Shown here: piece after piece, positions 28,714 to 32,067 of the stretch
Layout of the letters: every line of letters starts with the position of its first letter
Position numbering within the stretch: the first letter of the stretch is position 1
NCBI GenBank assembly: GCA_004296775.1
Contig: RHGE01000017.1
Span: 1 to 64,000 of the forward strand
Length of the DNA stretch: 64,000 bases
Reading direction: 5' to 3'
Origin: Marinilabiliaceae bacterium JC017
Lineage (GTDB): Bacteria; Bacteroidota; Bacteroidia; Bacteroidales; Marinilabiliaceae
Position numbers and translations under genes: made by a program
Notes under the pieces: model-generated
Seen by the model: the letters and a program-made list of their open reading frames with translations, nothing else
The model's database searches: none
What the model was told of the DNA's origin: nothing

Positions 28714-29424
28714 TTATACCTCAACAGACTTAAACTCTCCCTGCCAGTTAATAATGGCACTGAATGTGAATTGGTCTTTTTTAAATGGTTCAAACTGATA
28801 ATAGACAGATACTATTTCACAAACTGACAATATCTTTTCGTAAATAGCGTTTAATGCTTCCACTCCAGCCTCACTAATAGTATTCTCATTGTAATCTAAA
28901 GCGGCACCAATGGTATTTACTTGTCGCATTCGTTCTACATAAGCGGCTATTCGCTCTATTAAGATAGGACTGGTTCCCCTGGATGTAATTTCTTCTTTTA
29001 ATTGCGGCGTCATCCCTTCATCAAACGACAATAGCAACTGCATCAAGGCATCCTGATTATTATTGAGGGCATCATTTATGTAACTGTTGTACCCCAATAC
29101 TTCGTGAACTTCTTCCACTTTTTGTCTTTCAGAGGCAAAATCTGATTCCAATTGCTTTTTCAAAAACATCAAATCGCGAAAAGCCGGTCCCTGAATAGCC
29201 GCAAATCTGGATGTGGCATCACGAAAATGATAGTCTGGATCTAATTGCAGGTAATTATCAAAAGCTTCATTGATCTGCTTCATCAAGCCGTCAACATACC
29301 GGGCGGTCCATTGACTACGAATAGCCGAAAGATCTCCCAGGTTGCTTTTCAAACGCTCTACGATGGTTTTAGCAGCCACCAACATTTGAATGTCTTCATA
29401 CTGATAATTGCGATGTTTATTCAT
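28714..29424 (-). CDS. Uncharacterised alpha-helical protein
   Basis: 236 aa, almost wholly helical, with no signal peptide or membrane segment. It begins MNKHRNYQYEDIQML and has three or four long amphipathic helices (for example LMFLKKQLESDFASERQKVE). I do not recognise a function; it may belong to a Bacteroidota-specific DUF. Coding is supported by length, a terminator just downstream and clean codon structure. A short ORF on the same strand lies 213 bp upstream. Confidence 0.75.
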   Translation of the reverse strand: MNKHRNYQYEDIQMLVAAKTIVERLKSNLGDLSAIRSQWTARYVDGLMKQINEAFDNYLQLDPDYHFRDATSRFAAIQGPAFRDLMFLKKQLESDFASERQKVEEVHEVLGYNSYINDALNNNQDALMQLLLSFDEGMTPQLKEEITSRGTSPILIERIAAYVERMRQVNTIGAALDYNENTISEAGVEALNAIYEKILSVCEIVSVYYQFEPFKKDQFTFSAIINWQGEFKSVEV

Positions 29425-30038: not shown

Positions 30039-31181
30039 TTAAAGCTTACAAAGTCGATCAGCGACCTTTCTTAACAACTCATCAGGCTTGGCAAAGTTGA
30101 AACGCAACAAGTGCTTTTTTGATTTCTCATGAAAAAAAACACTAACAGGTGTGGCAGCCACTCCTTGTTCCTCAAGTAATTTAACAGCAAACTCCCGATC
30201 ATTCTGGTCAGAAATAGCATCGTAACAGAAAATCTCAAAAAAGGTACCCTTGGTCAAAATCGGCTTAAAACGGGAAGGCTCCATCAATTCGTTGAACAGA
30301 TCTCTTTTTTGCTGATAGAACTGCCGTAATCCCATATACTCTTCAGGTTTATGAAGAAATTCAGCTAACGCCAGCTGAAACGGAGAGTTCACACTTTGAA
30401 TCGCTACCTCCTGGACGGTTCTTATCTCTTTGGTAATTTGAGCAGGTGCCAGACAGTAACCAATCTGCCAACCGGTAACATGGAAAGTTTCTCCAAAAGA
30501 CGATACAATCACACTCCTTTCGGCCAGCTTGGGATAAAGTGCCATACTTTGATGCGATTCAGCATCAAAAATAATGTGCTCAAATGTTTCATCGCTCAAA
30601 ACTATAATTTTAGTGCCATTGATTATTTTCTGGAGCCTCAACATATCCAGCTCATTAAATGTGGCACCGGTAGGATTATGCGGAGAATTAACAATGATCA
30701 TTCGTGTGCGGTTGGAAATCACCTTTTGCACTTCCTCCCAATCAACATGAAAGTCAGGTGATTTTAACGGAACAAACACCGGCTGACCACCATTCATTTG
30801 GATAGCCGGCACATAATTAAGACAAGCTGGTTCAAACACAATAACTTCATCCCCTTCCTTTATAAGGGCGGATAATACCGTAAACACTCCCTGGGCAGAA
30901 CCTGCAGTCACTGTTACCTCATCGTTTTCATCATATTCATGCCCATACAGATGTTTGACCTTTTCGGCAATCATGTGCCTTAAAAGAGGCTCACCACTAA
31001 CTGGTGCAAATTGATTGAGACTTTCAGAGAGATACTTCTGAACCAATTTAATTAGTTCAGAGGAACAGTGAAATCCTGAATAACCTTCAGCCATATTAAG
31101 CGCGTTATGCTGCGCAATCAACTTACGAACTTTGGCAAAATAGCTAAGTTCCAGGTTTAGGTACTTTGAACTTATCTTCAT
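30039..31181 (-). CDS. Aminotransferase-fold protein lacking the PLP lysine
   Basis: 380 aa, clearly homologous to fold-type I aminotransferases of the methionine/kynurenine type (YbdL-like): VNSPHNPTGA with N165, VLSDETFEHIIFD with D197, and a C-terminal LLRFNFAK with R360. The family normally has SSFGKT-x-H-x-TGWK-x-GYC; here it reads SSFGET and TGWQIGYC, so the Schiff-base lysine is E231 (codon GAA), the phosphate-binding K/R is Q239, and the DEVYEH tyrosine is F200. The frame is intact and full length. Transamination looks impossible, so a non-catalytic or altered role is inferred. It is monocistronic, and tRNA-Arg lies 50 bp downstream. Confidence 0.85.
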   Translation of the reverse strand: MKISSKYLNLELSYFAKVRKLIAQHNALNMAEGYSGFHCSSELIKLVQKYLSESLNQFAPVSGEPLLRHMIAEKVKHLYGHEYDENDEVTVTAGSAQGVFTVLSALIKEGDEVIVFEPACLNYVPAIQMNGGQPVFVPLKSPDFHVDWEEVQKVISNRTRMIIVNSPHNPTGATFNELDMLRLQKIINGTKIIVLSDETFEHIIFDAESHQSMALYPKLAERSVIVSSFGETFHVTGWQIGYCLAPAQITKEIRTVQEVAIQSVNSPFQLALAEFLHKPEEYMGLRQFYQQKRDLFNELMEPSRFKPILTKGTFFEIFCYDAISDQNDREFAVKLLEEQGVAATPVSVFFHEKSKKHLLRFNFAKPDELLRKVADRLCKL

Positions 31182-31338
31182 AACATCTGATTAAGATTCT
31201 CACCCTGGTAAAAGTCAACTAAAAATAAGCATTATGCCTTTAAAAAACCTATTGAGATAAATCAGGTCTCTCTTTTTTTAACTAAAAATTGTTAATTATT
31301 TGATTAATCCCTCTAATTATACAGTCAATGAGGTTGAA

Positions 31339-32067
31339 TTAGTCGGAATGGAATAACTGATGTAAAATTTCTAATGACTTTATTTTCCCAAAATCTTCGA
31401 TATGGAGTGCATAATAATCCAGTAAGGAATTAAGCAATTCATTCCTATCATGGCTATTTAACTTTAATGAAGTAAGTGCTTCAACTTTTAGATTCAGGAG
31501 CCTTCTCCATTTATCTGACTGACTAGCATTCAAATAATATGGATGAAGTGGCTCTGTTTCTTTAAATATTCCGCTCTTCAAATCAAAAAACTTACATTGA
31601 TCATTGGATGGAAGAGCCGGTGAAAAACCAAGGAACCTGGATAATTGTACCAGAAAAAAGAGATGAAAATTTGATAATCCCTCAATCCCTTCATCCAGAA
31701 CCTCAATAGCACCATAGACAAACTCAAACAATCCAGGATTAGCCTCTTCTTCACGCAATACCTTCGATAATACTTCAGTTAAAAAGAAGGCAATACTCCG
31801 TTTTGTCTGGTCAAATGGCAACGACGAAAAAGGGTACTCTGTTCTAAAATCCCTTATTCGATGCACCTCTTTTCGTTCGTGATGAGACACCTCCAACCTC
31901 AAAAGCGCCAGAGGCTGAAGAAACACGGCTTTGCCTTTACTCTTTGCTTTACGTACCCCATTCACCATATATGATTGCCGCCCGAATAATTCTGTATAAA
32001 TATGGACAATGATACTCGTCTCGGAATACCTCACATGATCCAGCACTATTCCTCTGGTTGAAAACAT
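31339..32067 (-). CDS. recO: DNA repair protein RecO
   Basis: 242 aa, the usual length. N-terminal OB fold (TRGIVLDHVRYSETSIIVHIYTE), then FGRQSYMVNGVRKAKS and a helical C-terminal half. It loads RecA onto SSB-coated gaps with RecR. The zinc-finger cysteines found in some RecO are reduced to one here (C at NDQCKFFDL), as in other Bacteroidota. Monocistronic, with a 156-bp gap on the aminotransferase side. Confidence 0.92.
   Translation of the reverse strand: MFSTRGIVLDHVRYSETSIIVHIYTELFGRQSYMVNGVRKAKSKGKAVFLQPLALLRLEVSHHERKEVHRIRDFRTEYPFSSLPFDQTKRSIAFFLTEVLSKVLREEEANPGLFEFVYGAIEVLDEGIEGLSNFHLFFLVQLSRFLGFSPALPSNDQCKFFDLKSGIFKETEPLHPYYLNASQSDKWRRLLNLKVEALTSLKLNSHDRNELLNSLLDYYALHIEDFGKIKSLEILHQLFHSD

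Follow-up and report, generated by a model that had tools for sequence, protein, structure and literature searches.

The stretch examined here, referred to as the window, is the 64,000 nt at positions 1 to 64,000 of contig RHGE01000017.1 of Marinilabiliaceae bacterium JC017, from an assembly of 6.65 Mb in 500 contigs. The gene of interest occupies positions 30039–31181 and encodes an aminotransferase homologue of 380 amino acids. The initial annotation had reported this reading frame, which is intact, without stating its orientation; it lies on the minus strand. Directly upstream, in the same direction and separated by 157 bp (31182–31338), is recO (31339–32067, minus strand), recognised by Pfam RecO_N and RecO_C and by TIGR00613. 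A 236-aa open reading frame, for which Pfam gave no match (E≤0.001), is found on the same strand at 28714–29424. The description of the gene as full length with normal codon use was correct, as its mean log synonymous score of –1.115 falls within the range of nine neighbouring genes (–1.029 to –1.211). Rfam at the gathering threshold returned two tRNAs and no riboswitch in the window. The Bacteroidetes promoter consensus TAnnTTTG occurs in 14 of the 43 recO-to-gene intervals (6.0 would be expected) and on the reverse strand in 13 of the 43, and the motif including its –33 part was found in one (0.9 expected). Neither is present in the window.

By homology the gene product belongs to the fold-type I aminotransferases and, within them, to the YbdL (methionine aminotransferase) subfamily. 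It matches Pfam Aminotran_1_2 (E=2.7e-49) and NCBIfam NF006569, 'methionine aminotransferase', with a score of 456 bits (cut-off 420). The same model matched all 15 members of set A1 at E≤1e-60, with the comparison to the cut-off made for the window protein only. The nearest solved structure is Escherichia coli YbdL (PDB 1u08). An AlphaFold2 model built from a 46-sequence alignment (mean pLDDT 93.6, pTM 0.92) also returned 1u08 as its top Foldseek match, with a TM score of 0.97–0.98.

Homology and fold thus place the protein with YbdL, and its cofactor site does not resemble that of an aminotransferase. The open reading frame contains SSFGETFHVTGWQ, and codon 231 (30489–30491), at the position of the Schiff-base lysine, is GAA, which places Glu231 opposite K236 of YbdL. 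Codon 239 (30465–30467) is CAG (Gln), at a position that, by human KAT-I, we take to be the lysine that binds the PLP phosphate, and codon 200 (30582–30584), within SDETFEH, is TTT (Phe). In alignments to YbdL and human KAT-I, E231, Q239 and F200 stand opposite Lys, Lys and Tyr, respectively. The SSFGET, TGWQ and DETFEH motifs of the initial annotation are therefore real, as is the retention of N165, D197 and R360 (30102–30104), the last of which is presumably the substrate-carboxylate position. The annotation had counted three PLP contacts as changed together. Those three are changed, and the count was too low: Tyr58 is replaced by Phe, Thr96 by Ala and Tyr/Phe120, which by human KAT-I we take to be the ring-stacking aromatic, by Cys (30822–30824). 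None of Lys239, Tyr/Phe120, Tyr200, Thr96 and Tyr58 (0/5) is kept, so that, with the contacts listed as in human KAT-I, the window protein lacks both the phosphate and the ring contacts expected of a YbdL-type enzyme, along with the Schiff-base lysine.

In 71 Marinilabiliaceae genomes, which include Anaerophaga thermohalophila (L038) and Alkalitalea saponilacus (L069), both Marinilabiliaceae at NCBI, an orthologue (40% identity or more) is present in 47 and missing from 24, the latter including all genomes listed for genus g6. Lys231 is missing in all 47 gene-bearing genomes, the window's own included, and a single-codon error is thereby excluded. The 45 full-length copies carry Glu (40), Gln (2), His (1), Thr (1) or Ile (1) at this position. 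Of the other two, L169, which has Glu, is cut by a contig end, and L168 (G072:C204), which has Gln, is split between two frames by either decay or an assembly error. Of the three changes that the initial annotation proposed to look for in homologues, Glu231 is present in 41/47 family genomes, Lys239 is lost in 45/45 rows and Tyr200 is kept in 5/45. By comparison, Lys239 is present in 99% and Tyr200 in 100% of 88 rows with Lys231 (the latter in 11% of family rows), and Tyr/Phe120 in 90/90 K-type rows. Tyr/Phe120, Tyr58 and Thr96 are likewise mostly lost (kept in 6, 11 and 13 of the 45 family rows), as are Q32, F34 and P35 of the N-terminal substrate loop, and those mostly kept are Ser228 (44), Arg360 (44), Asn165 (41) and Asp197 (30, with Glu in 14 more). 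As mean pairwise identity is lower among the 45 family rows (51%) than among the 88 Lys231 rows (56%), the shared change is not due to the sampling of near copies.

The loss is concentrated in the cofactor site to some degree. With a conservation threshold of 95% in the 88 Lys231 rows, 6/9 PLP-contact columns and 19/75 others fall below half of the 45 family rows (Fisher P=0.018; Mann-Whitney P=0.007). The contacts were taken from human KAT-I rather than computed, and of ten columns number 95 was dropped as less than 95% conserved, leaving nine. When columns kept at 90% or more were counted instead, the two sets did not differ (2/9 versus 27/75, P=0.34). The presence of an active paralogue in the window genome, raised in the initial annotation, was rejected: there is no close second copy, and the next match over most of the length is 30% identical. 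Across the 71 family genomes no Lys-bearing YbdL-type gene was found, the next matches being approximately 30% identical.

In close pairs, purifying selection acts on the gene as strongly as it does on its catalytic relatives. Values of dN/dS were obtained for 6 of 15 pairs without the lysine and 6 of 9 pairs with it. The close lysine-less pairs gave 0.052 (L119/L120), 0.016 (L121/L123), 0.033 (L133/L135), 0.063 (L141/L142) and 0.030 (L081/L082), and the six close pairs with the lysine gave 0.023–0.063. The sixth lysine-less value, 0.096, is for the window gene and L125, at a dS of 3.2. A second round yielded values for three of six further pairs: lysine-less L190/L196 (0.161/2.11, approximately 0.08) and L078/L185 (0.261/2.12, approximately 0.12), both with dS above 2, and Lys-type L173/L174 (0.042/1.07, 0.04). 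Loss of the lysine, an intact gene and purifying selection are thus found together, as expected of a pseudoenzyme. Sequencing error and a pseudogene were rejected for the family.

The gene's position next to recO is shared by 42 of the 44 other family loci; the exceptions are L142, at a contig end, and L133, with no recO match. Outside the family, among the matches listed, 14/140 loci are linked to recO, nine with the lysine and five without. Three of the Lys-bearing ones (L241, L246 and L273) have a complete site, so the recO link either preceded loss of the lysine or arose separately. A different arrangement is frequent, not universal, among Lys-bearing relatives in the order: in 67/131 Lys loci, among the matches listed (four end too early), the gene directly downstream encodes a carbon-nitrogen hydrolase (NCBIfam PRK10438) that we take to be the omega-amidase YafV. 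This amidase is downstream in none of the nine lysine-less loci, the 14 recO-linked loci or the 44 family loci (5/140 order loci end too early). The possibility that the family lost the omega-amidase along with the transaminase was rejected, as 61/71 family genomes have a YafV-like match stronger than 1e-40 (e.g. G000:C298:21540–22304). By eye, no aminotransferase was recognised within approximately 1.5 kb of the family amidase in ten loci. As the amidase is kept and a Lys-bearing YbdL-type gene was not found in the family, a different enzyme must serve as the amidase's partner in amino transfer.

Downstream of the family copies no shared gene was seen throughout the loci viewed. In 11 loci (L077, L173, L174, L176, L177, L180, L181, L190, L196, L299 and L312), which include both Lys-bearing and lysine-less genes, a GH3-family gene is directly downstream (Pfam was used for three of them). 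The linkages described track the phylogeny and represent few independent events.

When the order was surveyed, 145/393 genomes had a match at E≤1e-60. Among the matches listed, 140 loci are outside the family; 131 have Lys231 and nine do not: L146 (Ile), L172 (Arg), L177 (Arg), L185 (Pro), L186 (Pro), L188 (Glu), L189 (Pro), L190 (Val) and L196 (Ile). Five more distant matches (L315–L319) have the lysine. A scan of named genomes added lysine-less L077 (Ile), L078 (Pro; titled Prolixibacteraceae), L081 and L082 (Pro) and L083 (His). One genome, G159, carries a complete Lys-type copy (L208) and a divergent Glu231 copy (L188), which might be compared as a pair. The 14 lysine-less rows outside the family keep Tyr58 in 11, Tyr/Phe120 in nine, Thr96 in six and Lys239 in five, and because their sites are less eroded than those of the family, these proteins may still bind PLP.

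The final tree was built from a chosen subset of 88 rows after removal of the active-site columns. It requires six changes between presence and absence of the lysine (6–7 over bootstraps), all six forced by well-supported branches. If the lysine cannot be regained, these are six losses: one in the family together with a Pro/His group (37 rows, joined within forks of 80/84 support), one in L077/L190/L196, and one each in L146, L172, L177 and L188. The last four rest on single genomes, where a single-codon error is possible. A first tree (35 lysine-less of 85 rows) had pointed to a single loss (one origin, support 80/88), which wider sampling overturned; intermediate trees, one on a chosen 85-row subset, had eight changes with four forced. 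All trees leave out L048 (its frame was taken as 1411 aa long), the distant L092–L117 and the partial L168, L169, L170 and L175; these four partial copies were also left out of the conservation tables. Also dropped were L154 and L163, which are identical copies of L039 and L040, and the shorter duplicates L009–L037, L038 and L069. Sister pairs that differ at this position include L146 (Ile) and L191 (Lys), L172 (Arg) and L184 (Lys), and L177 (Arg) and L173/L174 (Lys). The lysine seems, from the sequences, to have been lost several times in one subclade. In the f97-type group (L077, L190, L196, L299 and L312), Arg360 is replaced by Gly and Tyr200 by Phe in 5/5; L299 and L312 still have Lys231, and L077, L190 and L196 do not. 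In this group, judged by its present members, the substrate arginine was lost first and the lysine later.

As the cofactor contacts have been lost while the gene has been kept intact across the family, the window protein probably does something other than transaminate. Repeated loss of the lysine from a gene that selection continued to maintain suggests that a non-catalytic function was in place before the losses. The reading we favour, with moderate confidence, is that the window protein is a PLP-free pseudo-aminotransferase, kept for a ligand- or partner-binding role that is older than loss of the lysine. The initial annotation had also proposed a pseudo-aminotransferase, whose role might be regulatory, ligand-binding or a new catalysis. 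Its retention by selection is upheld by the absence of the lysine in 47/47 genomes, the low dN/dS, the loss of PLP contacts, the parallel losses and the lack of a close paralogue; as for cofactor and activity, we infer from the residues that the protein would neither hold PLP nor transaminate. In the sequence of events we envisage, a lineage outside the transaminase/omega-amidase gene pair would have had a second, non-catalytic job, and this would have made the catalytic residues dispensable. The likeliest such job would be binding, in the aminotransferase pocket without its cofactor, with Arg360 kept as a carboxylate anchor and Glu231 placed where the amino group of a substrate would sit.

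Helix 177–187 (30621–30653, minus strand) would be part of the partner surface by which binding might be read out. Five positions, E177, R182, Q184, G189 and Q211, are constant in the family and variable in Lys231 rows, and four of them (177, 182, 184 and 189) are in a 13-residue stretch comprising this helix and the residues just past it (P=0.0005 for random placement, calculated post hoc). The kept Arg360, the acid at 231 and the helix positions would together make the protein a candidate binding protein with a new partner surface. Several observations temper this. The 24/71 family genomes without the gene indicate that the job is dispensable, the loss of Q32, F34 and P35 in most family rows weakens the case for continued binding of the old substrate, and Glu231 is not strictly kept. 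As the f97-type group lacks Arg360, a ligand anchored by this residue cannot be common to all lysine-less lineages. A more specific version, which we regard as unlikely in its entirety, is that the recO-side copy of a methionine aminotransferase in Bacteroidales gained a non-catalytic signalling role responsive to amino or keto acids, acting with RecO or, in certain lineages, with the GH3-family neighbour; this role would have driven repeated, independent conversion to a pseudoenzyme. In Marinilabiliaceae, the removal of two charges (Lys231 to Glu and Lys239 to Gln) would then have made the cofactor site a direct receptor pocket in which a free amino acid is held between Arg360 and Glu231.

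Other explanations fare less well. Sugar 3-dehydratase ColD has His at the lysine position and carries out Lys-independent chemistry, and the window protein could similarly still bind PLP or PMP non-covalently and catalyse a reaction without the lysine. The fold is intact in the AlphaFold2 model, and Ser228, Asn165 and Asp/Glu197 are present in 44, 41 and 44 of the 45 family rows. However, the same rows lack Lys239 (45/45), the stacking aromatic (39), Tyr58 (34) and Thr96 (32), the window protein has Glu at position 231, and His there is confined to L083 and, within the family, to L134 (=L026), one of 47 genomes. We consider this explanation quite improbable.

We give still less credence to a new PLP-independent enzyme with Glu231 as its acid/base. 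Glu is the commonest replacement, and Gln239 is constant in the 32 rows with Gly230-Glu231, where Glu231 is constant by choice of rows, but other lysine-less lineages have Pro, Ile, Val, Arg or His at 231, the family itself also has Gln, His, Thr or Ile, and the neighbours of the family copies included no recognised pathway gene. Proteins of this fold class work as dimers with shared active sites, and the window protein could instead pair with an active aminotransferase as the non-catalytic half of a heterodimer. The relation of hLCB1 to hLCB2 in serine palmitoyltransferase offers a precedent (PMC3794620), against which stands the lack of an active close homologue: the best other long match is 30% identical in the window genome and approximately 30% across the 71 family genomes, and we hold such a heterodimer to be very unlikely. 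Finally, the absence of the gene from 24/71 family genomes and the split L168 copy would suit a decaying gene or sequencing error, an explanation refuted in the main, and left with almost no chance, by 47/47 copies without the lysine (45 of them full length), low dN/dS and ordinary codon use.

The naming of the window protein by NF006569 is likely a misannotation, and metabolic reconstructions that rely on it would credit the genome with a reaction that is probably beyond this protein. The subclade combines seemingly repeated loss of the lysine with living intermediates, in which Arg360 has gone and the lysine is kept, which makes it testable in what order an enzyme turns, step by step, into a pseudoenzyme.

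The window protein shares with YbdL its fold, length, approximately 40% identity and the substrate arginine, and differs from it in that the Schiff-base lysine, the phosphate lysine, the stacking aromatic and the conserved tyrosine have all been replaced. Ornithine decarboxylase antizyme inhibitors belong to a different fold class from the window protein, for which we know of no counterpart to antizyme. These inhibitors are described as PLP-enzyme homologues with a regulatory job (PMC2748086). Rv3778c of Mycobacterium tuberculosis, a lysine-less relative of PLP enzymes, has been called noncatalytic; it is related to cysteine desulfurases, and section 10 of the paper concerned describes no family-wide or repeated loss (PMC12910592). 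hLCB1 (SPTLC1), described as a PLP-enzyme relative without the PLP-binding lysine, forms a heterodimer with an active homologue (PMC3794620), whereas no close active homologue was found in the window genome. No lysine-less YbdL clade was recognised in the open-licence literature, among the matches listed. Lysine-less relatives of PLP enzymes are thus a known kind, represented by single proteins, and in the YbdL group one such relative spans a whole bacterial family.
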